Below, in pieces: positions 1 to 64,000 of a stretch of DNA of 64,000 bases. Origin of the DNA: Canna indica (taxonomy: Eukaryota; Streptophyta; Magnoliopsida; Zingiberales; Cannaceae); NCBI GenBank assembly GCA_034359265.1, contig CP136898.1, forward strand, positions 54,053,501 through 54,117,500, read 5' to 3'. The translations under genes were made by a program, and so were the position numbers. Positions within the stretch are counted from its first letter, which is position 1, and each line of letters begins with the position of its first letter. The notes below the pieces were generated by a model. That model saw only the letters and a list, made by a program, of their open reading frames with translations, did not search any database and was not told the DNA's origin.

Positions 1-10
1 TTAGTCTGTC

Positions 11-172
11 AAAAATAACTCGATTAACAACTTATCCCATCACAGTGAATGTTCTGGAGTTGCTAGGGACTCAGATTGCTGTGCGTTTCGAGCCAATACC
101 CCGAAGTTCAATCAGTCGGCTTCGTTCAAGATTCTATTCGAAAAATCTTGCAATTCTTTGCATTAGTTTGTC
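11..172 (+). repeat. Reference R-group monomer (type c, 162 bp)
   Basis: One full unit, counted from one aaaaataact to the next. Landmarks in order: the conserved A-rich block, cccatcacagtgaatgttctgg, the variable stretch gagttgctagggact, a CpG-rich segment (gtgcgtttcgagcc), ccccgaagttcaatcagtc, ggcttcgttcaagattc, a short A-run, and the pair ttgcaattc/tttgcatta. This copy has the gtgcgttt variant of type c. Other c copies have gggcgttt or, in domain B, gggccttt. Confidence 0.95.
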
Positions 173-334
173 AAAAATAACTCGATTAACAACTTCTCCC
201 ATCACAGTGAATGTTCTGGAATCGCCCGGGACTCAGATTTCTGGTCGTTTCGAGTCGATACCTGAAAGTTCAATCAGTAGGCTTCGTTCAGCATTCTGTT
301 CGAAAAATTGTGTAATTGTTTGCATTAGTTTGTC
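173..334 (+). repeat. Reference E-group monomer (type e, 162 bp)
   Basis: It has the same frame and length as the R group but differs at linked sites: ggaatcgcccgggact replaces ggagttgctcgggact, cagatttctggtcg replaces cagattgctgggcg, cctgaaag replaces ccccgaag, cagtagg replaces cagtcgg, and ttcagcattctgttc replaces ttcaagattctattc. The E group therefore carries a CCCGGG palindrome and, with its GGAATCG, completes a third GAA unit (see the 208-222 entry). Types b (agcaatctg) and e (agcattctg) differ mainly in the right half. Confidence 0.93.
208..222 (+). promoter_or_regulatory. Perfect three-unit heat-shock-element match (example of a dispersed motif)
   Basis: The bases tgaatgttctggaat fit nGAAnnTTCnnGAAn, the canonical heat shock factor (HSF) binding element of three inverted pentamers in contiguous 5-bp phase (GAA 209-211, TTC 214-216, GAA 219-221). 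E-group monomers generally keep all three units. R-group monomers have GAG in the third position and keep two. Three c monomers in domain B (near 20,378, 23,779 and 49,719) also lose the first GAA through gtcaatg. The match is seen directly. Binding or function is not shown and could be chance fixed by amplification. Confidence 0.4.
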
Positions 335-561
335 AAAAATAACTCGATTAACAACTTATCCCATCATAGTGAATGTTCTGGAGTTGCTCGGGACTCAGAT
401 TGCTGGGCGTTTCGAGCCGATACCCCGAAGTTCAATCAGTCGGCTTCGTTCAAGATTCTATTCGAAATATCTTGCAATTCTTTGCATTAGTCTGTGAAAA
501 ATAACTCGATTAACAACTTATCCCATCACAGTGAACGTTCTGGAGTCGGTCGGGACTCAGA

Positions 562-3500
562 TTGCTGGGCGTTTCGAGCCGATACCCCGAAGTTCAATTA
601 GTCGGCTTCGTTCAAGATTCTATTCGAAAAAATCTTACAATTCATTGCATTAGTCTATCAAAAATAACTCGATTAACAAATTCTCCCATCATAGTGAATG
701 TTCTGGAGTCGGTCGGGACTCAGATTTCTGGTCGTTTCGATTCGATACCCCGAAGTTCAATCAGTCGGCTTCGTTCAAGATTCTATTCTAAAATTCTTGC
801 AATTCTTTGCATCAGTCAGTCAAAAATAACTCGATTAACAACTTATCCCATCACAGTGAATGTTCTGGAGTCGGTCGGGACTCAGATTGCCGGGCGTTTC
901 CAGCCAATACCCCGAAATTCAATCAGTCGGCTTCGTTCAAGATTCTTTTCAAAAAATCTTGCAATTCTTTGCATTAGTCTATCAAAAATAACTCGATTAA
1001 CAACTTCTCCCATCACAGTGAATGTTCTGGAATCGCCCGGGACTCAGATTTCTGGTCGTTTCGAGTCGATACTTGAAAGTTCAATCAGTAGGCTTCGTTC
1101 AGCAATCTGTTCAAAAAACCGTGTAATTCTTTGCATTAGTCTGTCAAAAATAACTCGATTAACAACTTATCCCATCACAGTGAATGTTCTGGAGTTGCTC
1201 GGGACTCAGATTGCTGGGCGTTTCGAGCCAATACCCCGAAGTTCAATCAGTCGGCTTCGTTCAAGATTCTATTCGAAAAATCTTGCAATTCTTTGCATTA
1301 GTTTGTCAAAAATAACTCGATTAACAACTTCTCCCATCACAGTGAATGTTCTGGAATCGACCGGGACTCAGATTTCTGGTCGTTTCGAGTCGATACCTGA
1401 AAGTTCAATCAGTAGGCTTCGTTCAGCAATCTGTTCGAAAAACCGTGTAATTCTTTGCATCAGTCAGTCAAAAATAACTCGATTAACAACTTATCCCATC
1501 ACAGTGAATGTTCTGGAGTCTGTCGGGACTCAGATTGCTGGGCGTTTCCAGCCGATACCCCGAAGCTCAATCAGTCGGCTTCGTTCAAGATTCTATTCGA
1601 AAAATCTTGCAATTCTTTGCATTAGTCTGTCAAAAATAACTCGATTAACAACTTCTCCCATCACAGTGAATGTTCTGGAATCGCCCGGGACTCAGATTTT
1701 TGGTCGTTTCGAGTCGATACCTGAAAGTTCAATCAGTAGGCTTCGTTCAGCAATCTGTTCGAAAAACCGTGTAATTCTTTGCATTAGTCTGTCAAAAATA
1801 ACTCGATTAACAACTTCTCCCATCACAGTGAATGTTCTGGAATCGCCCGGGACTCAGATTGCTGGGCGTTTCGAGCCGATACCCCGAAGTTCAATTAGTC
1901 GGCTTCGTTCAAGATTCTATTCGAAAAAATCTTACAATTCATTGCATTAGTCTATCAAAAATAACTCGATTAACAAATTCTCCCATCATAGTGAATGTTC
2001 TGGAGTCGGTCGGGACTCAGATTTCTGGTCGTTTCGATTCGATACCCCGAAGTTCAATCAGTCGGCTTCGTTCAAGATTCTATTCTAAAATTCTTGCAAT
2101 TCTTTGCATCAGTCAGTCAAAAATAACTCGATTAACAACTTATCCCATCACAGTGAATGTTCTGGAGTCGGTCGGGACTCAGATTGCCGGGCGTTTCCAG
2201 CCAATACCCCGAAATTCAATCAGTCGGCTTCGTTCAAGATTCTTTTCAAAAAATCTTGCAATTCTTTGCATTAGTCTATCAAAAATAACTCGATTAACAA
2301 CTTCTCCCATCACAGTGAATGTTCTGGAATCGCCCGGGACTCAGATTTCTGGTCGTTTCGAGTCGATACTTGAAAGTTCAATCAGTAGGCTTCGTTCAGC
2401 AATCTGTTCAAAAAACCGTGTAATTCTTTGCATTAGTCTGTCAAAAATAACTCGATTAACAACTTATCCCATCACAGTGAATGTTCTGGAGTTGCTCGGG
2501 ACTCAGATTGCTGGGCGTTTCGAGCCAATACCCCGAAGTTCAATCAGTCGGCTTCGTTCAAGATTCTATTCGAAAAATCTTGCAATTCTTTGCATTAGTT
2601 TGTCAAAAATAACTCGATTAACAACTTCTCCCATCACAGTGAATGTTCTGGAATCGACCGGGACTCAGATTTCTGGTCGTTTCGAGTCGATACCTGAAAG
2701 TTCAATCAGTAGGCTTCGTTCAGCAATCTGTTCGAAAAACCGTGTAATTCTTTGCATCAGTCAGTCAAAAATAACTCGATTAACAACTTATCCCATCACA
2801 GTGAATGTTCTGGAGTCTGTCGGGACTCAGATTGCTGGGCGTTTCCAGCCGATACCCCGAAGCTCAATCAGTCGGCTTCGTTCAAGATTCTATTCGAAAA
2901 ATCTTGCAATTCTTTGCATTAGTCTGTCAAAAATAACTCGATTAACAACTTCTCCCATCACAGTGAATGTTCTGGAATCGCCCGGGACTCAGATTTTTGG
3001 TCGTTTCGAGTCGATACCTGAAAGTTCAATCAGTAGGCTTCGTTCAGCAATCTGTTCGAAAAACCGTGTAATTCTTTGCATTAGTCTGTCAAAAATAACT
3101 CGATTAACAACTTCTCCCATCACAGTGAATGTTCTGGAATCGCCCGGGACTCAGATTTCTGGTCGTTTCGAGTCGATACCTGAAAGTTCAATCAGTAGGC
3201 TTCGTTCAGCATTCTGTTCGAAAAACTGTGTAATTCTTTGCATTAGTCTGTCAAAAATAACTCGATTAACAACTTATCCCATCACAGTGAATTTTCTGGA
3301 GTTGCTCGGGACTCAGATTGCTGCGCGTTTCGAGCCGATACCCCGAAGTTCAATCAGTCGGTTTCGTTCAAGATTCTATTCGAAATATCTTGCAATTCTT
3401 TGCATTAGTCTATCAAAAATAACTCAATTAACAAATTCTCCCATCACAGTGAATGTTCTGGAGTCGGTCGGGACTCAGATTTCTGGACGTTTCGAGTCGA

Positions 3501-4451
3501 TACCCCGAAGTTCAATCAGTCGGCTTCGTTCAAGATTCTATTCGAAAATTCTTGCAATTCTTTGCATCAGTCAGTCAAAAATAACTCGATTAACAACTTA
3601 TCCCATCACAGTGAATGTTCTGGAGTCGGTCGGGACTCAGATTGCTGGGCGTTTCCAGCCAATACCCCGAAGTTCAATCAGTCGGCTTCGTTCAAGATTC
3701 TATTCAATAAATCTTGCAATTCTTTGCATTAGTCTGTCAAAAATAACTCGATTAACAACTTCTCCCATCACAGTGAATGTTCTGGAATCGCCCGGGACTC
3801 AGATTTCTGGTCGTTTCGAGTCGATACCTGAAAGTTCAATCAGTAGGCTTCGTTCAGCAATCTGTTCGAAAAACTGTGTAATTCTTTGCATTAGTCTGTC
3901 AAAAATAACTCGATTAACAACTTATCCCATCACAGTGAATGTTCTGGAGTTGCTAGGGACTCAGATTGCTGTGCGTTTCGAGCCAATACCCCGAAGTTCA
4001 ATCAGTCGGCTTCGTTCAAGATTCTATTCGAAAAATCTTGCAATTCTTTGCATTAGTTTGTCAAAAATAACTCGATTAACAACTTCTCCCATCACAGTGA
4101 ATGTTCTGGAATCACCTGGGACTCAGATTTCTGGTCGTTTCGAGTCGATACCTGAAAGTTCAATCAGTAGGCTTCGTTCAGCATTCTGTTCGAAAAATTG
4201 TGTAATTGTTTGCATTAGTTTGTCAAAAATAACTCGATTAACAACTTATCCCATCATAGTGAATGTTCTGGAGTTGCTCGGGACTCAGATTGCTGGGCGT
4301 TTCGAGCCGATACCCCGAAGTTCAATCAGTCGTCTTCGTTCAAGATTCTATTCGAAATATCTTGCAATTCTTTGCATTAGTCTGTCAAAAATAACTCGAT
4401 TAACAACTTATCCCATCACAGTGAACGTTCTGGAGTCGGTCGGGACTCAGA
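562..4451 (+). repeat. Domain A HORs: 8-mer (562-1858) and 16-mer (1859-4451)
   Basis: The monomer order of the first is f-d-a-b-c-b-a-b. The next f is a hybrid whose left half is b (gaatcgcccggg) and whose right half is f. The 16-mer begins with the same eight and continues b-c-d-a-b-c-e-c. Within it, near 3,400-3,430, a c monomer passes directly to d with actcaattaacaa between, without an intervening f. That c-to-d adjacency reappears in domains B and C. Confidence 0.8.
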
Positions 4452-6882
4452 TTGCTGGGCGTTTCGAGCCGATACCCCGAAGTTCAATTAGTCGGCTTCG
4501 TTCAAGATTCTATTCGAAAAAATCTTACAATTCATTGCATTAGTCTATCAAAAATAACTCGATTAACAAATTCTCCCATCATAGTGAATGTTCTGGAGTC
4601 GGTCGGGACTCAGATTTCTGGTCGTTTCGATTCGATACCCCGAAGTTCAATCAGTCGGCTTCGTTCAAGATTCTATTCTAAAATTCTTGCAATTCTTTGC
4701 ATCAGTCAGTCAAAAATAACTCGATTAACAACTTATCCCATCACAGTGAATGTTCTGGAGTCGGTCGGGACTCAGATTGCTGGGCGTTTCCAGTCAATAC
4801 CCCGAAATTCAATCAGTCGGCTTCGTTCAAGATTCTTTTCAAAAAATCTTGCAATTCTTTGCATTAGTCTATCAAAAATAACTCGATTAACAACTTCTCC
4901 CATCACAGTGAATGTTCTGGAATCGCCCGGGACTCAGATTTCTGGTCGTTTCGAGTCGATACTTGAAAGTTCAATCAGTAGGCTTCGTTCAGCAATCTGT
5001 TCAAAAAACCGTGTAATTCTTTGCATTAGTCTGTCAAAAATAACTCGATTAACAACTTATCCCATCACAGTGAATGTTCTGGAGTTGCTCGGGACTCAGA
5101 TTGCTGGGCGTTTCGAGCCAATACCCCGAGGTTCAATCGGTCGGCTTCGTTCAAGATTCTATTCGAAAATTCTTGCAATTCTTTGCATCAGTCAGTCAAA
5201 AATAACTCGATTAACAACTTATCCCATCACAGTGAATGTTCTGGAGTCGGTCGGGACTCAGATTGCTGGGCGTTTCCAGCCAATACCCCGAAGTTCAATC
5301 AGTCGGCTTCGTTCAAGATTCTATTCAATAAATCTTGCAATTCATTGCATTAGTCTGTCAAAAATAACTCGATTAACAACTTCTCCCATCACAGTGAATG
5401 TTCTGGAATCGCCCGGGACTCAGATTTCTGGTCGTTTCGAGTCGATACCTGAAAGTTCAATCAGTAGGCTTCGTTCAGCAATCTGTTCGAAAAACTGTGT
5501 AATTCTTTGCATTAGTCTGTCAAAAATAACTCGATTAACAACTTATCCCATCACAGTGAATGTTCTGGAGTTGCTAGGGACTCAGATTGCTGTGCGTTTA
5601 GAGCCGATACCCCGAAGTTCAATCAGTCGGCTTCGTTCAAGATTCTATTCGAAAAATCTTGCAATTCTTTGCATTAGTTTGTCAAAAATAACTCGATTAA
5701 CAACTTATCCCATCACAGTGAATGTTCTGGAGTTGCTCGGGACTCAGATTGCTGGGCGTTTCGAGCCAATACCCCGAAGTTCAATCAGTCGGCTTCGTTC
5801 AAGATTCTATTAGAAAAATATTGCAATTCTTTGCATTAGTTTGTCAAAAATAAATCGATTAACAACTTCTCCCATCACAGTGAATGTTCTGGAATCGACC
5901 GGGACTCAGATTTCTGGTCGTTTCGAGTCGATACCTGAAAGTTCAATCAGTAGGCTTCGTTCAGCAATCTGTTCAAAAAACTGTGTAATTGTTTGCATTA
6001 GTTTGTCAAAAATAACTCGATTAACAACTTATCCCATCACAGTGAATGTTCTGGAGTTGCTCGGGACTCAGATTGCTGGGCGTTTCGAGCCGATACCCCG
6101 AAGTTCAATCAGTCGGCTTCGTTCAAGATTCTATTCGAAAAATCTTGCAATTCTTTGCATTAGTTTGTCAAAAATAACTCGATTAACAACTTCTCCCATC
6201 ACAGTGAATGTTCTGGAATCGCCCGGGACTCAGATTTCTGGTCGTTTCGAGTCGATACCTGAAAGTTCAATCAGTAGGCTTCGTTCAGCATTCTGTTCGA
6301 AAAATTGTGTAATTGTTTGCATTAGTCTGTCAAAAATAACTCGATTAACAACTTATCCCATCACAGTGAATGTTCTGGAGTTGCTAGGGACTCAGATTGC
6401 TGTGCGTTTCGAGCCAATTCCCCGAAGTTCAATCAGTCGGCTTCGTTCAAGATTCTATTCGAAAAATCTTGCAATTCTTTGCATTAGTTTGTCAAAAATA
6501 ACTCGATTAACAACTTCTCCCATCACAGTGAATGTTCTGGAATCGCCCGGGACTCAGATTTCTGGTCGTTTCGAGTCGATACCTGAAAGTTCAATCAGTA
6601 GGCTTCGTTCAGCATTCTGTTCGAAAAATTGTGTAATTGTTTGCATTAGTTTGTCAAAAATAACTCGATTAACAACTTATCCCATCATAGTGAATGTTCT
6701 GGAGTTGCTCGGGACTCAGATTGCTGGGCGTTTCGAGCCGATACCCCGAAGTTCAATCAGTCGGCTTCGTTCAAGATTCTATTCGAAATATCTTGCAATT
6801 CTTTGCATTAGTCTGTGAAAAATAACTCGATTAACAACTTATCCCATCACAGTGAACGTTCTGGAGTCGGTCGGGACTCAGA
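4452..6882 (+). repeat. Domain A 15-mer HOR with c/d hybrid monomer
   Basis: The order is f-d-a-b-X-a-b-c-c-b-c-e-c-e-c. X (~5,090-5,205) starts as c (gagttgctcggg) and ends as d (gaaaattcttgc, catcagtcagtc). It has two private changes, ccccgaggttc and caatcggtcgg. The second c near 5,811 carries TAG from tattagaaaa, and the unit after it has aaatcgatt instead of actcgatt; both changes recur at +1945. Confidence 0.78.
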
Positions 6883-9600
6883 TTGCTGGGCGTTTCGAGC
6901 CGATACCCCGAAGTTCAATTAGTCGGCTTCGTTCAAGATTCTATTCGAAAAAATCTTACAATTCATTGCATTAGTCTATCAAAAATAACTCGATTAACAA
7001 ATTCTCCCATCATAGTGAATGTTCTGGAGTCGGTCGGGACTCAGATTTCTGGTCGTTTCGATTCGATACCCCGAAGTTCAATCAGTCGGCTTCGTTCAAG
7101 ATTCTATTCTAAAATTCTTGCAATTCTTTGCATCAGTCAGTCAAAAATAACTCGATTAACAACTTATCCCATCACAGTGAATGTTCTGGAGTCGGTCGGG
7201 ACTCAGATTGCCGGGCGTTTCCAGCCAATACCCCGAAATTCAATCAGTCGGCTTCGTTCAAGATTCTTTTCAAAAAATCTTGCAATTCTTTGCATTAGTC
7301 TATCAAAAATAACTCGATTAACAACTTCTCCCATCACAGTGAATGTTCTGGAATCGCCCGGGACTCAGATTTCTGGTCGTTTCGAGTCGATACTTGAAAG
7401 TTCAATCAGTAGGCTTCGTTCAGCAATCTGTTCAAAAAACCGTGTAATTCTTTGCATTAGTCTGTCAAAAATAACTCGATTAACAACTTATCCCATCACA
7501 GTGAATGTTCTGGAGTTGCTCGGGACTCAGATTGCTGGGCGTTTCGAGCCAATACCCCGAAGTTCAATCAGTCGGCTTCGTTCAAGATTCTATTCGAAAA
7601 ATCTTGCAATTCTTTGCATTAGTTTGTCAAAAATAACTCGATTAACAACTTCTCCCATCACAGTGAATGTTCTGGAGTTGCTCGGGACTCAGATTGCTGG
7701 GCGTTTCGAGCCAATACCCCGAAGTTCAATCAGTCGGCTTCGTTCAAGATTCTATTAGAAAAATATTGCAATTCTTTGCATTAGTTTGTCAAAAATAAAT
7801 CGATTAACAACTTCTCCCATCACAGTGAATGTTCTGGAATCGACCGGGACTCAGATTTCTGGTCGTTTCGAGTCGATACCTGAAAGTTCAATCAGTAGGC
7901 TTCGTTCAGCAATCTGTTCAAAAAACTGTGTAATTGTTTGCATTAGTTTGTCAAAAATAACTCGATTAACAACTTATCCCATCACAGTGAATGTTCTGGA
8001 GTTGCTCGGGACTCAGATTGCTGGGCGTTTCGAGCCGATACCCCGAAGTTCAATCAGTCGGCTTCGTTCAAGATTCTATTCGAAAAATCTTGCAATTCTT
8101 TGCATTAGTTTGTCAAAAATAACTCGATTAACAACTTCTCCCATCACAGTGAATGTTCTGGAATCGCCCGGGACTCAGATTTCTGGTCGTTTCGAGTCGA
8201 TACCTGAAAGTTCAATCAGTAGGCTTCGTTCAGCAATCTGTTGGAAAAACTGTGTAATTCTTTGCATTAGTCTGTCAAAAATAACTCGATTAACAACTTA
8301 TCCCATCACAGTGAATGTTCTGGAGTTGCTAGGGACTCAGATTGCTGTGCGTTTCGAGCCAATTCCCCGAAGTTCAATCAGTCGGCTTCGTTCAAGATTC
8401 TATTCGAAAAATCTTGCAATTCTTTGCATTAGTTTGTCAAAAATAACTCGATTAACAACTTCTCCCATCACAGTGAATGTTCTGGAATCGCCCGGGACTC
8501 AGATTTCTGGTCGTTTCGAGTCGATACCTGAAAGTTCAATCAGTAGGCTTCGTTCAGCATTCTGTTCGAAAAATTGTGTAATTGTTTGCATTAGTTTGTC
8601 AAAAATAACTCGATTAACAACTTATCCCATCATAGTGAATGTTCTGGAGTTGCTCGGGACTCAGATTGCTGGGCGTTTCGAGCCGATACCCCGAAGTTCA
8701 ATCAGTCGGCTTCGTTCAAGATTCTATTCGAAATATCTTGCAATTCTTTGCATTAGTCTGTGAAAAATAACTCGATTAACAACTTATCCCATCACAGTGA
8801 ACGTTCTGGAGTCGGTCGGGACTCAGATTGCTGGGCGTTTCGAGCCGATACCCCGAAGTTCAATTAGTCGGCTTCGTTCAAGATTCTATTCGAAAAAATC
8901 TTACAATTCATTGCATTAGTCTATCAAAAATAACTCGATTAACAAATTCTCCCATCATAGTGAATGTTCTGGAGTCGGTCGGGACTCAGATTTCTGGTCG
9001 TTTCGATTCGATACCCCGAAGTTCAATCAGTCGGCTTCGTTCAAGATTCTATTCTAAAATTCTTGCAATTCTTTGCATCAGTCAGTCAAAAATAACTCGA
9101 TTAACAACTTATCCCATCACAGTGAATGTTCTGGAGTCGGTCGGGACTCAGATTGCCGGGCGTTTCCAGCCAATACCCCGAAATTCAATCAGTCGGCTTC
9201 GTTCAAGATTCTTTTCAAAAAATCTTGCAATTCTTTGCATTAGTCTATCAAAAATAACTCGATTAACAACTTCTCCCATCACAGTGAATGTTCTGGAATC
9301 GCCCGGGACTCAGATTTCTGGTCGTTTCGAGTCGATACTTGAAAGTTCAATCAGTAGGCTTCGTTCAGCAATCTGTTCAAAAAACCGTGTAATTCTTTGC
9401 ATTAGTCTGTCAAAAATAACTCGATTAACAACTTATCCCATCACAGTGAATGTTCTGGAGTTGCTCGGGACTCAGATTGCTGGGCGTTTCGAGCCAATAC
9501 CCCGAAGTTCAATCAGTCGGCTTCGTTCAAGATTCTATTCGAAAAATCTTGCAATTCTTTGCATTAGTTTGTCAAAAATAACTCGATTAACAACTTCTCC
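5708..9600 (+). repeat. Two tandem copies of a 1945-bp 12-mer HOR
   Basis: Landmarks repeat at +1945 (12 x 162 + 1): the TAG-creating tattagaaaaatatt at 5811 and 7756, aaatcgatt at 5853 and 7798, tctgtgaaa at 6816 and 8761, and f anchors at 6883 and 8828. A monomer between the copies (~7,640-7,690) has an E-like left part (acttctccc) and a c-type right part (gagttgctcgg), the hybrid expected at an unequal-crossover junction. One patch differs: near 6,285-6,330 the copy reads gcattctgttcgaaaaattg, against gcaatctgttggaaaaactg near 8,230-8,275. Ends are approximate. Confidence 0.82.
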
Positions 9601-11972
9601 CATCACAGTGAATGTTCTGGAATCGACCGGGACTCAGATTTCTGGTCGTTTCGAGTCGATACCTGAAAGTTCAATCAGTAGGCTTCGTTCAGCAATCTGT
9701 TCGAAAAACCGTGTAATTCTTTGCATCAGTCAGTCAAAAATAACTCGATTAACAACTTATCCCATCACAGTGAATGTTCTGGAGTCTGTCGGGACTCAGA
9801 TTGCTGGGCGTTTCCAGCCGATACCCCGAAGCTCAATCAGTCGGCTTCGTTCAAGATTCTATTCGAAAAATCTTGCAATTCTTTGCATTAGTCTGTCAAA
9901 AATAACTCGATTAACAACTTCTCCCATCACAGTGAATGTTCTGGAATCGCCCGGGACTCAGATTTTTGGTCGTTTCGAGTCGATACCTGAAAGTTCAATC
10001 AGTAGGCTTCGTTCAGCAATCTGTTCGAAAAACCGTGTAATTCTTTGCATTAGTCTGTCAAAAATAACTCGATTAACAACTTCTCCCATCACAGTGAATG
10101 TTCTGGAATCGCCCGGGACTCAGATTGCTGGGCGTTTCGAGCCGATACCCCGAAGTTCAATTAGTCGGCTTCGTTCAAGATTCTATTCGAAAAAATCTTA
10201 CAATTCATTGCATTAGTCTATCAAAAATAACTCGATTAACAAATTCTCCCATCATAGTGAATGTTCTGGAGTCGGTCGGGACTCAGATTTCTGGTCGTTT
10301 CGATTCGATACCCCGAAGTTCAATCAGTCGGCTTCGTTCAAGATTCTATTCTAAAATTCTTGCAATTCTTTGCATCAGTCAGTCAAAAATAACTCGATTA
10401 ACAACTTATCCCATCACAGTGAATGTTCTGGAGTCGGTCGGGACTCAGATTGCCGGGCGTTTCCAGCCAATACCCCGAAATTCAATCAGTCGGCTTCGTT
10501 CAAGATTCTTTTCAAAAAATCTTGCAATTCTTTGCATTAGTCTATCAAAAATAACTCGATTAACAACTTCTCCCATCACAGTGAATGTTCTGGAATCGCC
10601 CGGGACTCAGATTTCTGGTCGTTTCGAGTCGATACTTGAAAGTTCAATCAGTAGGCTTCGTTCAGCAATCTGTTCAAAAAACCGTGTAATTCTTTGCATT
10701 AGTCTGTCAAAAATAACTCGATTAACAACTTATCCCATCACAGTGAATGTTCTGGAGTTGCTCGGGACTCAGATTGCTGGGCGTTTCGAGCCAATACCCC
10801 GAAGTTCAATCAGTCGGCTTCGTTCAAGATTCTATTCGAAAAATCTTGCAATTCTTTGCATTAGTTTGTCAAAAATAACTCGATTAACAACTTCTCCCAT
10901 CACAGTGAATGTTCTGGAATCGACCGGGACTCAGATTTCTGGTCGTTTCGAGTCGATACCTGAAAGTTCAATCAGTAGGCTTCGTTCAGCAATCTGTTCG
11001 AAAAACCGTGTAATTCTTTGCATCAGTCAGTCAAAAATAACTCGATTAACAACTTATCCCATCACAGTGAATGTTCTGGAGTCTGTCGGGACTCAGATTG
11101 CTGGGCGTTTCCAGCCGATACCCCGAAGCTCAATCAGTCGGCTTCGTTCAAGATTCTATTCGAAAAATCTTGCAATTCTTTGCATTAGTCTGTCAAAAAT
11201 AACTCGATTAACAACTTCTCCCATCACAGTGAATGTTCTGGAATCGCCCGGGACTCAGATTTTTGGTCGTTTCGAGTCGATACCTGAAAGTTCAATCAGT
11301 AGGCTTCGTTCAGCAATCTGTTCGAAAAACCGTGTAATTCTTTGCATTAGTCTGTCAAAAATAACTCGATTAACAACTTCTCCCATCACAGTGAATGTTC
11401 TGGAATCGCCCGGGACTCAGATTTCTGGTCGTTTCGAGTCGATACCTGAAAGTTCAATCAGTAGGCTTCGTTCAGCATTCTGTTCGAAAAACTGTGTAAT
11501 TCTTTGCATTAGTCTGTCAAAAATAACTCGATTAACAACTTATCCCATCACAGTGAATTTTCTGGAGTTGCTCGGGACTCAGATTGCTGCGCGTTTCGAG
11601 CCGATACCCCGAAGTTCAATCAGTCGGTTTCGTTCAAGATTCTATTCGAAATATCTTGCAATTCTTTGCATTAGTCTATCAAAAATAACTCAATTAACAA
11701 ATTCTCCCATCACAGTGAATGTTCTGGAGTCGGTCGGGACTCAGATTTCTGGACGTTTCGAGTCGATACCCCGAAGTTCAATCAGTCGGCTTCGTTCAAG
11801 ATTCTATTCGAAAATTCTTGCAATTCTTTGCATCAGTCAGTCAAAAATAACTCGATTAACAACTTATCCCATCACAGTGAATGTTCTGGAGTCGGTCGGG
11901 ACTCAGATTGCTGGGCGTTTCCAGCCAATACCCCGAAGTTCAATCAGTCGGCTTCGTTCAAGATTCTATTCA
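8267..11972 (+). repeat. Segmental duplicate, right copy (pairs with 1-3706)
   Basis: This is the second copy of the block described for 1-3706. It contains the 8-mer HOR at 8828-10124 and most of the HOR opening at 10125, in the same monomer order as 562-1858 and 1859-3706. Its right end is not a natural HOR end. The partner continues with ttcaataaatcttgc, while this copy is cut and joined to another monomer, so the truncation came after the duplication or created its edge. Confidence 0.83.
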
Positions 11973-11977
11973 GATTT
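11967..11977 (+). other. A/B boundary: truncated monomer, ~95-bp deletion
   Basis: The R-group end attctatt runs straight into cagatttctggtcg of an E-group monomer, skipping the A-run, the ttgcaattc tail, the conserved A-rich block and cccatcacagtg. The f anchors at 10125 and 12137 are 2012 apart. Thirteen monomers plus one base would be 2107, so 95 bases are missing. A TCA is shared at both ends (attctatTCA and gacTCAgattt), consistent with microhomology-mediated joining. This is also where domain A variants give way to domain B variants. Confidence 0.88.
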
Positions 11978-12071
11978 CTGGTCGTTTCGAGTCGATACCT
12001 GAAAGTTCAATCAGTAGGCTTCGTTCAGCAATCTGTTCGAAAAACCGTGTAATTCTTTGCATTAGTCTGTC

Positions 12072-12234
12072 AAAAATAACTCGATTAACAACTTATCCCA
12101 TCACAGTGAACGTTCTGGAGTCGGTCGGGACTCAGATTGCTGGGCGTTTTGAGCCGATACCCCGAAGTTCAATTAGTCGGCTTCGTTCAAGATTCTATTC
12201 GAAAAATTCTTGCAATTCATTGCATTAGTCTATC
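12072..12234 (+). repeat. Reference f monomer, 163 bp, HOR-opening unit
   Basis: The distance from aaaaataac at 12072 to the next copy at 12235 is 163, one base longer than the standard unit. The extra base lies in the A/T run after tattcg (gaaaaattcttgc here, gaaaaaatctt in domains A and C). Linked markers are gtgaacgttctgg, gcgttttgagccg (B) or gcgtttcgagccg (A, C), caattagtcgg and caattcattgcattagtcta. I count 55 f monomers in the window. Consecutive ones are spaced n x 162 + 1, apart from the few intervals carrying a private indel. They are the best marker of HOR boundaries. Confidence 0.93.
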
Positions 12235-53314: not shown

Positions 53315-56300
53315 TTGCTGGGCGTTTCGAGCCGATACCCCGAAGTTCAATCAGTCGGCTTCGTTCAAGATTCTATTCGAAAAAATCTTGCAATTCATTG
53401 CATTAGTCTATCAAAAATAACTCGATTAACAAATTCTCCCATCATAGTGAATGTTCTGGAGTCGGTCGGGACTCAGATTTCTGGTCGTTTCGATTCGATA
53501 CCCCGAAGTTCAATCAGTCGGCTTCGTTCAAGATTCTATTCTAAAATTCTTGCAATTCTTTGCATCAGTCAGTCAAAAATAACTCGATTAACAACTTATC
53601 CCATCACAGTGAATGTTCTGGAGTCGGTCGGGACTCAGATTGCTGGGCGTTTCCAGCCAATACCCCGAAATTCAATCAGTCGGCTTCGTTCAAGATTCTT
53701 TTCAAAAAATCTTGCAATTCTTTGCATTAGTCTATCAAAAATAACTCGATTAACAACTTCTCCCATCACAGTGAATGTTCTGGAATCGCCCGGGACTCAG
53801 ATTTCTGGTCGTTTCGAGTCGATACCTGAAAGTTCAATCAGTAGGCTTCGTTCAGCATTCTATTCGAAAAACTGTGTAATTCTTTGCATTAGTCTGTCAA
53901 AAATAACTCGATTAACAACTTATCCCATCACAGTGAATGTTCTGGAGTTGCTCGGGACTCAGATTGCTGGGCGTTTCGAGCCGATACCCCGAAGTTCAAT
54001 CAGTCGGCTTCGTTCAAGATTCTATTCGAAATATCTTGCAATTCTTTGCATTAGTCTATCAAAAATAACTCGATTAACAAATTCTCCCATCACAGTGAAT
54101 GTTCTGGAGTCGGTCGAGACTCAGATTTCTGGTCGTTTCGAGTCGATACCCCGAAGTTCAATCAGTCGGCTTCGTTCAAGATTCTATTCGAAAATTCTTG
54201 CAATTCTTTGCATCAGTCAGTCAAAAATAACTCGATTAACAACTTATCCCATCACAGTGAATGTTCTGGAGTCGGTCGGGACTCAGATTGCTGGGCGTTT
54301 CCAGCCAATACCCCGAAGTTCAATCAGTTGGCTTCGTTCAAGATTCTATTCAATAAATCTTGCAATTCCTTGCATTAGTCTGTCAAAAATAACTCGATTA
54401 ACAACTTCTCCCATCACAGTGAATGTTCTGGAATCGCCCGGGACTCAGATTTCTGGTCATTTCGAGTCGATACCTGAAAGTTCAATCAGTAGGCTTCGTT
54501 CAGCAATCTGTTCGAAAAACTGTGTAATTCTTTGCATTAGTCTGTCAAAAATAACTCGATTAACAACTTATCCCATCACAGTGAATGTTCTGGAGTTGCT
54601 AGGGACTCAGATTGCTGTGCGTTTTGAGCCAATACCCCGAAGTTCAATCAGTCGGCTTCGTTCAAGATTCTATTCGAAAAATCTTGCAATTCTTTGCATT
54701 AGTTTGTCAAAAATAACTCGATTAACAACTTCTCCCATCACAGTGAATGTTCTGGAATTGCCCGGGACTCAGATTTCTGGTCGTTTCGAGTCGATACCTG
54801 AAAGTTCAATCAGTAGGCTTCGTTCAGCATTCTATTCGAAAAATTGTGTAATTGTTTGCATTAGTTTGTCAAAAATAACTCGATTAACAACTTATCCCAT
54901 CATAGTGAATGTTCTGGAGTTGCTCGGGACTCAGATTGCTGGGCGTTTCGAGCCGATACCCCGAAGTTCAATCAGTCGGCTTCGTTCAAGATTCTATTCG
55001 AAAAAATCTTGCAATTCATTGCATTAGTCTATCAAAAATAACTCGATTAACAAATTCTCCCATCATAGTGAATGTTCTGGAGTCGGTCGGGACTCAGATT
55101 TCTGGTCGTTTCGATTCGATACCCCGAAGTTCAATCAGTCGGCTTCGTTCAAGATTCTATTCTAAAATTCTTGCAATTCTTTGCATCAGTCAGTCAAAAA
55201 TAACTCGATTAACAACTTATCCCATCACAGTGAATGTTCTGGAGTCGGTCGGGACTCAGATTGCTGGGCGTTTCCAGCCAATACCCCGAAATTCAATCAG
55301 TCGGCTTCGTTCAAGATTCTTTTCAAAAAATCTTGCAATTCTTTGCATTAGTCTATCAAAAATAACTCGATTAACAACTTCTCCCATCACAGTGAATGTT
55401 CTGGAATCGCCCGGGACTCAGATTTCTGGTCGTTTCGAGTCGATACCTGAAAGTTCAATCAGTAGGCTTCGTTCAGCATTCTATTCGAAAAACTGTGTAA
55501 TTCTTTGCATTAGTCTGTCAAAAATAACTCGATTAACAACTTATCCCATCACAGTGAATGTTCTGGAGTTGCTCGGGACTCAGATTGCTGGGCGTTTCGA
55601 GCCGATACCCCGAAGTTCAATCAGTCGGCTTCGTTCAAGATTCTATTCGAAATATCTTGCAATTCTTTGCATTAGTCTATCAAAAATAACTCGATTAACA
55701 AATTCTCCCATCACAGTGAATGTTCTGGAGTCGGTCGAGACTCAGATTTCTGGTCGTTTCGAGTCGATACCCCGAAGTTCAATCAGTCGGCTTCGTTCAA
55801 GATTCTATTCGAAAATTCTTGCAATTCTTTGCATCAGTCAGTCAAAAATAACTCGATTAACAACTTATCCCATCACAGTGAATGTTCTGGAGTCGGTCGG
55901 GACTCAGATTGCTGGGCGTTTCCAGCCAATACCCCGAAGTTCAATCAGTTGGCTTCGTTCAAGATTCTATTCAATAAATCTTGCAATTCCTTGCATTAGT
56001 CTGTCAAAAATAACTCGATTAACAACTTCTCCCATCACAGTGAATGTTCTGGAATCGCCCGGGACTCAGATTTCTGGTCATTTCGAGTCGATACCTGAAA
56101 GTTCAATCAGTAGGCTTCGTTCAGCAATCTGTTCGAAAAACTGTGTAATTCTTTGCATTAGTCTGTCAAAAATAACTCGATTAACAACTTATCCCATCAC
56201 AGTGAATGTTCTGGAGTTGCTAGGGACTCAGATTGCTGTGCGTTTTGAGCCAATACCCCGAAGTTCAATCAGTCGGCTTCGTTCAAGATTCTATTCGAAA

Positions 56301-56556
56301 AATCTTGCAATTCTTTGCATTAGTTTGTCAAAAATAACTCGATTAACAACTTCTCCCATCACAGTGAATGTTCTGGAATTGCCCGGGACTCAGATTTCTG
56401 GTCGTTTCGAGTCGATACCTGAAAGTTCAATCAGTAGGCTTCGTTCAGCATTCTATTCGAAAAATTGTGTAATTGTTTGCATTAGTTTGTCAAAAATAAC
56501 TCGATTAACAACTTATCCCATCATAGTGAATGTTCTGGAGTTGCTCGGGACTCAGA
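53315..56556 (+). repeat. Two near-identical 1621-bp 10-mers opened by a c/f hybrid
   Basis: f anchors are 53315, 54936 and 56557. The order is f-d-a-e-c-d-a-b-c-e. The conceptual translations of the two units are identical, and I noticed no base differences in spot checks. The opening monomer starts as c (catcatagtgaatg, gagttgctcggg) and ends as f (gaaaaaatcttgcaattcattg). In the 11-mers at 56557 and 58340 these are two separate monomers, c then f, so the 10-mer arose by losing one unit between them. Confidence 0.86.
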
Positions 56557-59500
56557 TTGCTGGGCGTTTCGAGCCGATACCCCGAAGTTCAATCAGTCGG
56601 CTTCGTTCAAGATTCTATTCGAAAAAATCTTGCAATTCATTGCATTAGTCTATCAAAAATAACTCGATTAACAAATTCTCCCATCATAGTGAATGTTCTG
56701 GAGTCGGTCGGGACTCAGATTTCTGGTCGTTTCGATTCGATACCCCGAAGTTCAATCAGTCGGCTTCGTTCAAGATTCTATTCTAAAATTCTTGCAATTC
56801 TTTGCATCAGTCAGTCAAAAATAACTCGATTAACAACTTATCCCATCACAGTGAATGTTCTGGAGTCGGTCGGGACTCAGATTGCTGGGCGTTTCCAGCC
56901 AATACCCCGAAATTCAATCAGTCGGCTTCGTTCAAGATTCTTTTCAAAAAATCTTGCAATTCTTTGCATTAGTCTATCAAAAATAACTCGATTAACAACT
57001 TCTCCCATCACAGTGAATGTTCTGGAATCGCCCGGGACTCAGATTTCTGGTCGTTTCGAGTCGATACCTGAAAGTTCAATCAGTAGGCTTCGTTCAGCAT
57101 TCTATTCGAAAAACTGTGTAATTCTTTGCATTAGTCTGTCAAAAATAACTCGATTAACAACTTATCCCATCACAGTGAATGTTCTGGAGTTGCTCGGGAC
57201 TCAGATTGCTGGGCGTTTCGAGCCGATACCCCGAAGTTCAATCAGTCGGCTTCGTTCAAGATTCTATTCGAAATATCTTGCAATTCTTTGCATTAGTCTA
57301 TCAAAAATAACTCGATTAACAAATTCTCCCATCACAGTGAATGTTCTGGAGTCGGTCGAGACTCAGATTTCTGGTCGTTTCGAGTCGATACCCCGAAGTT
57401 CAATCAGTCGGCTTCGTTCAAGATTCTATTCAAAAATTCTTGCAATTCTTTGCATCAGTCAGTCAAAAATAACTCGATTAACAACTTATCCCATCACAGT
57501 GAATGTTCTAGAGTCTGTCGGGACTCAGATTGCTGGGCGTTTCCAGCCAATACCCCGAAGTTCAATCAGTCGGCTTCGTTCAAGATTCTATTCAATAAAT
57601 CTTGCAATTCCTTGCATTAGTCTGTCAAAAATAACTCGATTAACAACTTCTCCCATCACAGTGAATGTTCTGGAATCGCCCGGGACTCAGATTTCTGGTC
57701 ATTTCGAGTCGATACCTGAAAGTTCAATCAGTAGGCTTCGTTCAGCAATCTGTTCGAAAAACTGTGTAATTCTTTGCATTAGTCTGTCAAAAATAACTCG
57801 ATTAACAACTTATCCCATCACAGTGAATGTTCTGGAGTTGCTAGGGACTCAGATTGCTGTGCGTTTCGAGCCAATACCCCGAAGTTCAATCAGTCGGCTT
57901 CGTTCAAGATTCTATTCGAAAAATCTTGCAATTTTTTGCATTAGTTTGTCAAAAATAACTCGATTAACAACTTCTCCCATCACAGTGAATGTTCTAGAAT
58001 CGCCCGGGACTCAGATTTCTGGTCGTTCCGAGTCGATACCTGAAAGTTCAATCAGTAGGCTTCGTTCAGCATTCTGTTCGAAAAATTGTGTAATTGTTTG
58101 CATTAGTTTGTCAAAAATAACTCGATTAACAACATATCCCATCATAGTGAATGTTCTGGAGTTGCTCGGGACTCAGATTGCTGGGCGTTTCGAGCCGATA
58201 CCCCGAAGTTCAATCAGTCGGCTTCGTTCAAGATTCTATTCGAAATATCTTGCAATTCTTTGCATTAGTCTGTCAAAAATAACTCGATTAACAACTTATC
58301 CCATCACAGTGAACGTTCTGGAGTCGGTCGGGACTCAGATTGCTGGGCGTTTCGAGCCGATACCCCGAAGTTCAATTAGTCGGCTTCGTTCAAGATTCTA
58401 TTCGAAAAAATCTTGCAATTCATTGCATTAGTCTATCAAAAATAACTCGATTAACAAATTCTCCCATCATAGTGAATGTTCTGGAGTCGGTCGGGACTCA
58501 GATTTCTGGTCGTTTCGATTCGATACCCCGAAGTTCAATCAGTCGGCTTCGTTCAAGATTCTATTCTAAAATTCTTGCAATTCTTTGCATCAGTCAGTCA
58601 AAAATAACTCGATTAACAACTTATCCCATCACAGTGAATGTTCTGGAGTCGGTCGGGACTCAGATTGCTGGCCGTTTCCAGCCAATACCCCGAAATTCAA
58701 TCAGTCGGCTTCGTTCAAGATTCTTTTCAAAAAATCTTGCAATTCTTTGCATTAGTCTATCAAAAATAACTCGATTAACAACTTCTCCCATCACAGTGAA
58801 TGTTCTGGAATCGCCCGGGACTCAGATTTCTGGTCGTTTCGAGTCGATACCTGAAAGTTCAATCAGTAGGCTTCGTTCAGCATTCTGTTCGAAAAACTGT
58901 GTAATTCTTTGCATTAGTCTGTCAAAAATAACTCGATTAACAACTTATCCCATCACAGTGAATGTTCTGGAGTTGCTCGGGACTCAGATTGCTGGGCGTT
59001 TCGAGCCGATACCCCGAAGTTCAATCAGTCGGCTTCGTTCAAGATTCTATTCGAAATATCTTGCAATTCTTTGCATTAGTCTATCAAAAATAACTCGATT
59101 AACAAATTCTCCCATCACAGTGAATGTTCTGGAGTCGGTCGAGACTCAGATTTCTGGTCGTTTCGAGTCGATACCCCGAAGTTCAATCAGTCGGCTTCGT
59201 TCAAGATTCAATTCGAAAATTCTTGCAATTCTTTGCATCAGTCAGTCAAAAATAACTCGATTAACAACTTATCCCATCACAGTGAATGTTCTAGAGTCGG
59301 TTGGGACTCAGATTGCTGGGCGTTTCCAGCCAATACCCCGAAGTTCAATCAGTCGGCTTCGTTCAAGATTCTATTCAATAAATCTTGCAATTCCTTGCAT
59401 TAGTCTGTCAAAAATAACTCGATTAACAACTTCTCCCATCACAGTGAATGTTCTGGAATCGCCCGGGACTCAGATTTCTGGTCATTTCGAGTCGATACCT

Positions 59501-60122
59501 GAAAGTTCAATCAGTAGGCTTCGTTCAAGATTCTATTCGAAATATCTTGCAATTCTTTGCATTAGTCTGTCAAAAATAACTCGGTTAACAACTTATCCCA
59601 TCACAGTGAATGTTCTGGAGTTGCTAGGGACTTAGATTGCTGTGCGTTTCGAGCCAATACCCCGAAGTTCAATCAGTCGGCTTCGTTCAAGATTCTATTC
59701 GAAAAATCTTGCAATTCTTTGCATTAGTTTGTCAAAAATAACTCGATTAACAACTTCTCCCATAACAGTGAATGTTCTAGAATCGCCCGGGACTCAGATT
59801 TCTGGTCGTTTCGAGTCGATACCTGAAAGTTCAATCAGTAGGCTTCGTTCAGCATTCTGTTCGAAAAATTGTGTAATTGTTTGCATTAGTTTGTCAAAAA
59901 TAACTCGATTAACAACTTATCCCATCATAGTGAATGTTCTGGAGTTGCTCGGGACTCAGATTGCTGGGCGTTTCGAGCCGATACCCCGAAGTTCAATCAG
60001 TCGGCTTCGTTCAAGATTCTATTCGAAATATCTTGCAATTCTTTGCATTAGTCTGTCAAAAATAACTCGATTAACAACTTATCCCATCACAGTGAACGTT
60101 CTGGAGTCGGTCGGGACTCAGA
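56557..60122 (+). repeat. Two 1783-bp 11-mers, second with E/R hybrid monomer
   Basis: f anchors are 56557, 58340 and 60123. The first is f-d-a-e-c-d-a-b-c-e-c. The second has, in place of b, a hybrid near 59,420-59,580 that begins E-group (ggaatcgcccggg, cctgaaag, cagtagg) and switches within ggcttcgttca to R-group c (agattctattcgaaatatc). The next c has gacttagattg, a C-to-T change creating TAG at 59633-59635, and its preceding block reads actcggttaac. Confidence 0.82.
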
Positions 60123-63100
60123 TTGCTGGGCGTTTCGAGCCGATACCCCGAAGTTCAATTAGTCGGCTTCGTTCAAGATTCTATTCGAAAAAATCTTGCA
60201 ATTCATTGCATTAATCTATCAAAAATAACTCGATTAACAAATTCTACCATCATAGTGAATGTTCTGGAGTCGGTCGGGACTCAGATTTCTGGTCATTTCG
60301 ATTCGATACCCCGAAGTTCAATCAGTCGGCTTCGTTCAAGATTCTATTCTAAAATTCTTGCAATTCTGTGCATCAGTCAGTCAAAAATAACTAGATTAAC
60401 AACTTATCCCATCACAGTGAATGTTCTGGAGTCGGTCGGGACTCAGATTGCTGGGCGTTTCCAGCCAATACCCCGAAATTCAATCAGTCGGCTTCGTTCA
60501 AGATTCTTTTCAAAAAATCTTGCAATTCTTTGCATTAGTCTATCAAAAATAACTCGATTAACAACTTCTCCCACCACAGTGAATGTTCTGGAATCGCCCG
60601 GGACTCAGATTTCTGGTCGTTTCGAGTCGATACCTGAAAGTTCAATCAGTAGGCTTCGTTCAGCATTCTGTTCGAAAAACTGTGTAATTCTTTGCATTAG
60701 TCTGTCAAAAATAACTCGATTAACAACTTATCCCATCACAGTGAATGTTCTGGAGTTGCTCGGGACTCAGATTGCTGGGCGTTTCGAGTCGATACCCCGA
60801 AGTTCAATCAGTCGGCTTCGTTCAAGATTCTATTCAAAATATCTTGCAATTCATTGCATTAGTCTATCAAAAATAACTCGATTAACAAATTCTCCCATCA
60901 TAGTGAATGTTCTGGAGTCGGTCGGGACTCAGATTTCTGGTCGTTTCGATTCGATACCCCGAAGTTCAATCAGTCGGCTTCGTTCAAGATTCTATTCTAA
61001 AATTCTTGCAATTCTTTGCATCAGTCAGTCAAAAATAACTCGATTAACAACTTATCCCATCACAGTGAATGTTCTGGAGTCGGTCGGGACTCAGATTGCT
61101 GGGCGTTTCCAGCCAATACCCCGAAATTCAATCAGTCGGCTTCGTTCAAGATTCTTTTCAAAAAATCTTGCAATTCTTTGCATTAGTCTATCAAAAATAA
61201 CTCGATTAACAACTTCTCCCATCACAGTGAATGTTCTGGAATCGCCCGGGACTCAGATTTCTGGTCGTTTCGAGTCGATACCTGAAAGTTCAATCAGTAG
61301 GCTTCGTTCAGCATTCTGTTCGAAAAATTGTGTAATTGTTTGCATTAGTTTGTCAAAAATAACTCGATTAACAACTTATCCCATCATAGTGAATGTTCTG
61401 GAGTTGCTCGGGACTCAGATTGCTGGGCGTTTCGAGCCGATACCCCGAAGTTCAATCAGTCGGCTTCGTTCAAGATTCTATTCGAAATATCTTGCAATTC
61501 TTTGCATTAGTCTGTCAAAAATAACTCGATTAACAACTTATCCCATCACAGTGAACGTTCTGGAGTCGGTCGGGACTCAGATTGCTGGGCGTTTCGAGCC
61601 GATACCCCGAAGTTCAATTAGTCGGCTTCGTTCAAGATTCTATTCGAAAAAATCTTGCAATTCTTTGCATTAGTTTGTCAAAAATAACTCGATTAACAAC
61701 TTCTCCCATAACAGTGAATGTTCTAGAATCGCCCGGGACTCAGATTTCTGGTCGTTTCGAGTCGATACCTGAAAGTTCAATCAGTAGGCTTCGTTCAGCA
61801 TTCTGTTCGAAAAATTGTGTAATTGTTTGCATTAGTTTGTCAAAAATAACTCGATTAACAACTTATCCCATCATAGTGAATGTTCTGGAGTTGCTCGGGA
61901 CTCAGATTGCTGGGCGTTTCGAGCCGATACCCCGAAGTTCAATCAGTCGGCTTCGTTCAAGATTCTATTCGAAATATCTTGCAATTCTTTGCATTAGTCT
62001 GTCAAAAATAACTCGATTAACAACTTATCCCATCACAGTGAACGTTCTGGAGTCGGTCGGGACTCAGATTGCTGGGCGTTTCGAGCCGATACCCCGAAGT
62101 TCAATTAGTCGGCTTCGTTCAAGATTCTATTCGAAAAAATCTTGCAATTCATTGCATTAATCTATCAAAAATAACTCGATTAACAAATTCTACCATCATA
62201 GTGAATGTTCTGGAGTCGGTCGGGACTCAGATTTCTGGTCATTTCGATTCGATACCCCGAAGTTCAATCAGTCGGCTTCGTTCAAGATTCTATTCTAAAA
62301 TTCTTGCAATTCTGTGCATCAGTCAGTCAAAAATAACTAGATTAACAACTTATCCCATCACAGTGAATGTTCTGGAGTCGGTCGGGACTCAGATTGCTGG
62401 GCGTTTCCAGCCAATACCCCGAAATTCAATCAGTCGGCTTCGTTCAAGATTCTTTTCAAAAAATCTTGCAATTCTTTGCATTAGTCTATCAAAAATAACT
62501 CGATTAACAACTTCTCCCACCACAGTGAATGTTCTGGAATCGCCCGGGACTCAGATTTCTGGTCGTTTCGAGTCGATACCTGAAAGTTCAATCAGTAGGC
62601 TTCGTTCAGCATTCTGTTCGAAAAACTGTGTAATTCTTTGCATTAGTCTGTCAAAAATAACTCGATTAACAACTTATCCCATCACAGTGAATGTTCTGGA
62701 GTTGCTCGGGACTCAGATTGCTGGGCGTTTCGAGTCGATACCCCGAAGTTCAATCAGTCGGCTTCGTTCAAGATTCTATTCAAAATATCTTGCAATTCAT
62801 TGCATTAGTCTATCAAAAATAACTCGATTAACAAATTCTCCCATCATAGTGAATGTTCTGGAGTCGGTCGGGACTCAGATTTCTGGTCGTTTCGATTCGA
62901 TACCCCGAAGTTCAATCAGTCGGCTTCGTTCAAGATTCTATTCTAAAATTCTTGCAATTCTTTGCATCAGTCAGTCAAAAATAACTCGATTAACAACTTA
63001 TCCCATCACAGTGAATGTTCTGGAGTCGGTCGGGACTCAGATTGCTGGGCGTTTCCAGCCAATACCCCGAAATTCAATCAGTCGGCTTCGTTCAAGATTC

Positions 63101-63689
63101 TTTTCAAAAAATCTTGCAATTCTTTGCATTAGTCTATCAAAAATAACTCGATTAACAACTTCTCCCATCACAGTGAATGTTCTGGAATCGCCCGGGACTC
63201 AGATTTCTGGTCGTTTCGAGTCGATACTTGAAAGTTCAATCAGTAGGCTTCGTTCAGTAATCTGTTCAAAAAACTGTGTAATTCTTTGCATTAGTCTGTC
63301 AAAAATAACTCGATTAATAACTTATCCCATCACAGTGAATGTTCTGGAGTTGCTCGGGACTCAGATTGCTGGGCGTTTCGAGCCGATACCCCGAAGTTCA
63401 ATCAGTCGGCTTCGTTCAAGATTCTATTCGAAATATTTTGCAATTCTTTGCATTAGTCTATCAAAAATAACTCGATTAACAAATTCTCCCATCACAGTGA
63501 ATGTTCTGGAGTCGGTCGAGACTCAGATTTCTGGTCGTTTCGAGTCGATACCCCGAAGTTCAATCAGTCGGCTTCGTTCAAGATTCTATTCGAAATATCT
63601 TGCAATTCTTTGCATTAGTCTGTCAAAAATAACTCGATTAACAACTTATCCCATCACAGTGAACGTTCTGGAGTCGGTCGGGACTCAGA
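60123..63689 (+). repeat. 9-mer, 3-mer and 10-mer HORs with a 1946-bp duplication
   Basis: f anchors are 60123, 61582, 62069 and 63690 (1459, 487 and 1621 bp). Private variants occur in pairs 1946 apart: cataacagtg and gttctagaatcg (59,76x/61,71x), attaatctatc (60,21x/62,16x), ttctaccatc, ggtcatttcgattc, ttctgtgcatc, aactagatt and tcccaccacag. The match spans roughly 59,700-61,275 against 61,646-63,221. It then ends as the second copy changes to gatacttgaaag and cagtaatctgttc. Confidence 0.82.
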
Positions 63690-64000
63690 TTGCTGGGCGT
63701 TTCGAGCCGATACCCCGAAGTTCAATTAGTCGGCTTCGTTCAAGATTCTATTCGAAAAAATCTTGCAATTCATTGCATTAGTCTATCAAAAATAACTCGA
63801 TTAACAAATTCTCCCATCATAGTGAATGTTCTGGAGTCGGTCGGGACTCAGATTTCTGGTCGTTTCGATTCGATACCCCGAAGTTCAATCAGTCGGCTTC
63901 GTTCAAGATTCTATTCTAAAATTCTTGCAATTCTTTGCATCAGTCAGTCAAAAATAACTCGATTAACAACTTATCCCATCACAGTGAATGTTCTGGAGTC
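63690..64000 (+). repeat. Start of a further HOR, cut by window end
   Basis: An f right half with gaaaaaatcttgcaattcattg is followed by a d monomer (cgattcgata, attctaaaattc, catcagtcagtc) and the beginning of an a monomer. This is the same start as the other domain C HORs. The preceding monomer (63,480-63,620) is a hybrid: d with gtcgagactc on the left, and a c-type tail (gaaatatcttgc) on the right. Confidence 0.8.

Follow-up and report, generated by a model that had tools for sequence, protein, structure and literature searches.

The window analysed here, a 64-kb stretch at C9:54,053,501-54,117,500 of an assembly of 752.9 Mb in nine contigs, consists of a single tandem satellite with a period of 162 bp, in which a homogeneous block of about 40 kb (domain B) lies between two ends that resemble each other (domains A and C). 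The array is very probably a mosaic in which higher-order repeats have expanded locally on the basis of a common 12-monomer unit, with B as one homogenised derivative. The A-B-A look of the window, taken in the first-pass annotation for the layered-expansion pattern of primate centromeres, is best read as the product of cropping an A-B-A-B-A patchwork.

Domain structure of the window

The satellite was counted as 394 copies by TRF and was cut into 395 monomers, 336 of 162 bp and 55 of 163 bp, all on the + strand. Five main monomer types (A to E) and rare variants or fusions (F, G, and H; n = 5, 1, and 1, respectively) are arranged in higher-order units about 5 to 25 monomers long. The monomer-to-monomer divergence, determined in one 8-kb block of the window, was about 9-10%, and the unit copies were 0.08-0.35% apart, far below the divergence among monomers; the satellite is thus an array with higher-order repeats. 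The following domains were delimited:

1..11970, + strand: domain A, 162/163-bp satellite with long, irregular higher-order units and the D2, C2, and E2 variants (the linked A/C motifs of the first-pass annotation)
12062..52591, + strand: domain B, uniform units of ABEDC, AABEDC, and AABDC, with type A carrying 71A and type E carrying 88T+145T
52592..64000, + strand: domain C, a 10-monomer unit (A4 B3 D1 C4 A8 B4 A10 F1 D2 C2) followed by irregular units

The first-pass annotation had proposed that A and C share linked variants and that the core of about 40 kb has its own; both proposals were confirmed. Of the motifs confined to the two ends, CGATTCGATA, which marks D2, occurs in 15 copies (6 left and 9 right), and CCCCGAAATTC and ATTCTTTTC, both marking C2, and GAAAAAATCTT, marking E2, occur in 14 copies each. 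All four are on the + strand, with zero starts between 10,505 and 53,379 of the window. The two B motifs, CTAAGATTT (51 copies, marking type-A monomers with 71A) and GTTTTGAGCCG (41 copies, marking E1), are on the + strand and were found only at 12,146-52,013. Domain C holds both A/C-only and B-like subtypes. When monomers were classed by their A/C or B marks, skipping those more than about 3.5 differences from every window subtype, 203 monomers of the window were informative (73 A/C-marked and 130 B-marked) and the class switched just twice. In 5000 shuffles, at least 69 switches were obtained by shuffling single monomers and at least 7 by shuffling blocks of 7.

The mean within-type difference per pair was determined in equal 73-monomer windows (domain A comprises 73 monomers, domain C 72). 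The resulting value was 3.78 for both A and C, and 1.42-2.01 for all 177 windows of B, so that B is about half as diverse as A and C. In a per-type comparison of 385 of the 395 monomers, which excluded the fusion types F, G, and H, the exception was type E, with the highest diversity in B (1.50, n = 41; A, 0.50, n = 4; C, 0.40, n = 5). The higher-order repeats of B, described earlier as shorter and more uniform, did not prove consistently shorter. The best lags per 20-monomer bin were 11, 11, 21, 10, 31, 10, 6, 49, 11, 22, 11, and 10 monomers in B and 10, 10, and 11 in C; those of A were 51, 15, and 12, with 8 in the edge-crossing bin.

Alternating blocks, shared units and ancestry of B

The map was extended to 274 contiguous kb, consisting of the window, 10 kb to its left (Left), and 200 kb to its right. 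It contains 1692 satellite matches, 0 N, and no inter-match gap longer than 6 bp, and therefore no retrotransposon within the 274 kb. On the right flank, R1 denotes the stretch between C and a second B-like homogeneous block, R2 that second block, at about 54.133-54.150 Mb and about 28 kb past the right edge of B, and R3 a further segment.

The A-B-A symmetry ended at the window edge: over the 33 kb adjoining it on the right (54.1175-54.150 Mb), the 69 informative monomers, 30 with A/C marks and 39 with B marks, switched class 23 times. At 54.15-54.18 Mb, 26 A/C-marked and 13 B-marked monomers (39 informative) gave 9 switches. Over the 274 kb, the two kinds of blocks alternate as A-B-A-B-A. 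The 5-kb k-mer identity of the B core was 98.98% with itself, 98.45% with the second block, and 97.05%, 97.04%, and 97.03% with A, C, and R1, respectively. From 54.18 to 54.3175 Mb the array shifts to patchy monomers about 8 differences (5%) from the window types, with recent local units of best lags of 8-57 monomers.

In the mirror test, 3 left blocks were compared with 15 right blocks. The mirror partners ranked 8, 5, and 2 and were the top match in 0 of 3 cases, the rank of 2 being a near tie (97.99 vs 98.02). The distance of domain A, in differences per monomer, was 1.79 to R1 and 2.43 to C. Divergence did not rise outward on both sides, as copies only 0.08-0.12% apart cross the left edge of the window and the second homogeneous block lies outside it.

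The unit A-A-B-D-C-A-B-A-B-E-D-C was detected in 10 exact type-string copies in the 274 kb: 3 starting left of the window, 1 in A, 4 in R1, 2 in R3, and 0 in B. Domain C holds one copy minus its first A. The copy in A is the following:

2919..4863, + strand: 12-monomer unit copy in domain A (type-string match)

Eight of the 10 copies end in E2 D2 C2, and two, both in R1, carry E1 and D1 as in B. The 10- and 11-monomer units of B can be read as shortened forms of the 12-monomer unit, in an order of events that we infer.

A maximum-likelihood tree was built from 391 of the 395 monomers (110 distinct), excluding monomers 73 (229 bp), 271 (152 bp), and 298 (161 bp) and the cut last one; its bootstrap was unsettled. 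Monomers of A and C were interleaved, and the supported clades D2, C2, B4-like, and B1-like mix A and C only. Six sequences occur in more than one domain, two of them in A and C, three in B and C, and one in A and B. The predicted nesting of B within A/C was seen for type E, whose B-domain monomers make up a single clade surrounded by E2 forms (11 rows, 99/91), and for some type-A monomers, 8 of 18 B-domain rows of that type forming one clade (99/85). For types D and C it is the A/C-only clades that sit among forms also present in B, so that over the types the nesting is mutual. The D2 marks 42T and 91T and the C2 mark 105A are derived when polarised against the other types; within the window they occur only in A and C, and B retains the ancestral state at these sites. 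A/C and B thus appear to be partly sister lineages rather than simply parent and child.

The mean nearest distances of B, determined with targets subsampled to 60 monomers, were 0.95 differences per monomer for R2, 1.09 for R1, 1.26 for R3, 2.24 for Left, 2.33 for C, and 2.57 for A. Among the distinct B monomers, 33 of 53 were nearer to R1/R2 than to A/C (R1 and R2 together comprise 202 monomers, A and C 145). A derivation of B straight from its flanks was dropped, because the nearest distances put R2, R1, and R3 closer than A and C.

Recent duplications and the edges of B

Eight chosen block-duplication comparisons across the region resulted in divergences of 0.08-0.35%. The larger duplications are the following:

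1..3566 and about 8267-11832, + strand: segmental duplicate, monomers 0-21 and 51-72, lag 8266 bp; 9 mismatches in 3960 bp (0.23%)
12062..19846, + strand: segment of 48 monomers found again 24.0 kb downstream at about 36,062-43,846; 21 mismatches in 7860 bp (0.27%)
C9:54,173,720-54,222,169: tandem duplication of 24,390 bp (24.39-kb lag); 22 mismatches in 24,060 bp (0.09%)
C9:54,043,501-54,055,188: 25-monomer unit (4049 bp) in near-identical copies across the first base of the window; 0.08-0.12%

The values of 0.08% and 0.12% at the 4049-bp lag are one comparison with slightly different ends. The 25-monomer unit includes the shared 12-monomer unit and four monomers unlike the window types. The divergences of the 11-monomer repeat of B, the 10-monomer unit of C, and the 13-monomer unit of R2 were 0.15%, 0.29%, and 0.35%, respectively. 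The 24.39-kb tandem duplication spans the boundary of two monomer families, which gives the order X-Y-X-Y and hence an X-Y-X pattern without any core. The local freshness was expressed, in 4-kb bins, as the median divergence of 12-monomer runs from their best match within 60 monomers. A median of 0.0000 was found in three bins at the left edge of the window, one bin of C, and two bins of the right flank, and the bins of B gave 0.0005-0.0031. The freshest copies at these short lags lie outside B, and recent duplication is no peculiarity of the core.

The left edge of B is formed by an aberrant monomer:

11833..12061, + strand: chimeric monomer of 229 bp at the A/B edge, in which the head of type C passes out of register into a tail of type A at about 11,970

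At the join an apparent 3-bp TCA overlap was read by eye, and the 31-mers across it occur a single time in the 274 kb. The 7.8-kb segment duplicated within B starts at this junction monomer. The right edge, between about 52.1 and 52.9 kb, is in register, and three monomer sequences are identical in B and C. The unlike edges point to an illegitimate event on the left and to ordinary exchange on the right. The monomer order across B, D4 on the A side and then C4 on the C side, is in phase; as D nearly always precedes C, this says little.

Further aberrant monomers of the window are listed below, of which F1, F2, and H1 suggest intra-monomer exchange that removed one monomer from the unit:

44010..44161, + strand: short monomer of 152 bp with a 10-bp deletion, within B
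53.2, 54.9, and 56.5 kb of the window: fusion monomers F1, B-type head and E-type tail
About 1,785 and 10,050 of the window: fusion monomers F2, A-type head and E-type tail
59.4 kb of the window: fusion monomer H1, A/B

Origin of the A-B-A pattern and comparison with known systems

The mosaic itself, the common 12-monomer unit, the duplications, and the aberrant left junction are seen directly in the sequence; the mosaic probably arose as follows. An older unit of about 12 monomers would first have spread through the neighbourhood. Shorter 10/11-monomer derivatives, related to units now on the right flank, would have arisen next and, through rounds of block duplication, have grown into the 40-kb B and the second block near 54.133-54.150 Mb. 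Unequal exchange, gene conversion, or replication-based copying may have been the machinery. A and C would then owe their likeness to the older unit that both retain, and not to a single layer split by one core. Several observations weigh against this account. Among the 53 distinct monomers of B, 14 lie closer to A/C than to R1/R2 and 6 are ties, and for monomer type B, 8 of 9 distinct B-domain monomers are nearer to A/C. Domain B is the most homogeneous long stretch within 54.04-54.20 Mb, as expected of a young core, and one of its bins (54,067,501) reaches 0.0000 at long lag owing to exact copies inside B. The left side, represented by 10 kb of contiguous sequence only, is thinly tested.

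According to the layered-expansion model, B would be the young centre, and A and C the displaced halves of an older layer. A and C do have derived variants in common and do interleave, and within types B is half as diverse as they are; the low internal divergence and the 98.98% self-identity of B suit a younger core, its youth being judged from homogeneity. These parts of the first-pass proposal stood, but the symmetric layering did not: the symmetry stops at the window edge, the mirror blocks are not top matches, and the kin of B lie beyond C. The left edge of the window, the C unit, and the right flank also hold short-lag 12-monomer runs as fresh as or fresher than those of B. The right side past 54.18 Mb is about 5% from the window monomers, yet 324-bp matches of 98-100% are scattered to the left as far as 53.50 Mb. 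Layered expansion is consequently quite improbable here.

A possible, if unlikely, origin of B is its arrival as a block of B-type array from the right flank or another array, via break-induced replication or re-insertion of an extrachromosomal circle, and subsequent growth. The out-of-register C/A join at the left edge, with its apparent 3-bp overlap and unique in 274 kb, the start of the duplicated 7.8-kb segment at the same place, the closeness of B to R2 rather than to its neighbours, and the presence of one B marker also on C1 are consistent with arrival. However, the right edge is in register with monomer sequences identical in B and C, and the aberrant monomer, a single event, may equally be the scar of a later deletion or duplication. 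An old tandem duplication over the A/B boundary (X-Y to X-Y-X-Y), which would make A and C duplicates of a single block, is improbable. The same process did build X-Y-X-Y at about 54.174-54.222 Mb, but nearest monomers of A and C are about 2.1-2.4 differences apart, their unit orders differ, and neither domain is closer to its counterpart than to other parts of the region. It is very improbable that the blocks stem from satellite reads that were collapsed or misjoined. Copies that are nearly exact and lie tens of kb from each other are difficult to place in an assembly; against this, the 274 kb contain 0 N and the duplications differ in divergence (0.08-0.35%), although neither is decisive.

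The satellite extends well beyond the mapped mosaic. Exact copies of a 20-bp satellite anchor number 124,251 across the genome (76,026 on + and 48,225 on -), corresponding to about 20 Mb and at least about 2.7% of the genome if one 162-bp monomer per copy is assumed. In 3-kb samples of C9 (57.8 Mb), the anchor was on + from 53.5 to 54.75 Mb and on - at 55.5, 56, and 57 Mb; it was absent from the sample at 55.0 Mb and from all eight from 46 to 53.25 Mb. The sample at 55.0 Mb contains a different minisatellite with units of roughly 30 bp (by eye from frames), and that at 53.25 Mb, left of the satellite block, contains candidate open frames resembling Ty1-copia reverse transcriptase by eye. The 34-mer of type A with 71A, a B marker, occurs 134 times genome-wide, with 80 copies on C9, 53 on C1, and 1 on C2; 100 places were listed and the remainder were derived from strand totals (54 on -, equal to C1 plus C2). 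Eight of its C9 places lie left of the window at 53.418-54.049 Mb. On C1, the first 100 anchor copies listed are on + at 39-46.3 Mb and the B-marker copies on - at 47.7-48.6 Mb; an orientation flip like that of C9 may also occur on C1. The plant-type telomere word was found in 10,775 copies, against 0 for a control word, so the genome is very probably that of a plant. The window sequence had no match in plasmid and phage collections, no paper on a 162-bp centromeric satellite was found in the library searched, and six monomer words were absent from the paper texts in a text search.

Plant satellite arrays, such as Arabidopsis CEN178 and others, carry locally homogenised patches of higher-order repeats. 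The present array is similar to these in its recent block duplication, variants common to distant positions, and one dominant monomer length, but differs in its regular units of about 5 to 25 monomers built from 5 main types and in the lack of a retrotransposon in 274 kb. The term layered expansion has been applied to plants too, in passages of PMC10910784, PMC12046899, and PMC11406182. Layered arrays, as outlined in part of PMC8099727, are mirrored: the p- and q-side blocks of one layer are alike and the innermost are the most identical. The alpha-satellite of human chromosome 8 described there resembles the present array in monomer length, higher-order repeats, and a near-identical block between divergent ones. 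In contrast, when compared by sequence alone, the present array has no mirror symmetry past the window, no two-sided outward rise of divergence, alternating kin blocks, and no transposon-laden outer layer in 274 kb. The name of the beet satellite pEV implies EcoRI, the site of which is present in most of its monomers; GAATTC was found once in the 395 monomers of the window, which speaks against a plain pEV match. In the sections of PMC4881148 and PMC2820488 concerned, pEV is an abundant satellite of H3K9me2 heterochromatin and is not enriched with CenH3. Its reported abundance of 3.58% is to be set beside at least about 2.7% here, and both satellites lie in blocks on several chromosomes; pEV is a tentative counterpart at most.

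It is a rather doubtful idea that higher-order repeat lineages travel as blocks between distant places, perhaps between C1 and C9, become inserted through illegitimate joins, of which the 229-bp chimera would be one, and homogenise locally; if true, A-B-A patterns would record insertion, not outward ageing. The array is a clear example of how 64 kb of sequence can look like a layered centromere when 274 kb show a mosaic of alternating blocks. Before layering is called in a newly assembled satellite, the entire array must be mapped, its variants polarised, and its mirror positions tested as best matches. The series of units from the 12-monomer unit through E1/D1 intermediates to the 10/11-monomer units, together with the unlike edges of B, offers usable material for testing how higher-order repeats become shorter, change place, and homogenise.

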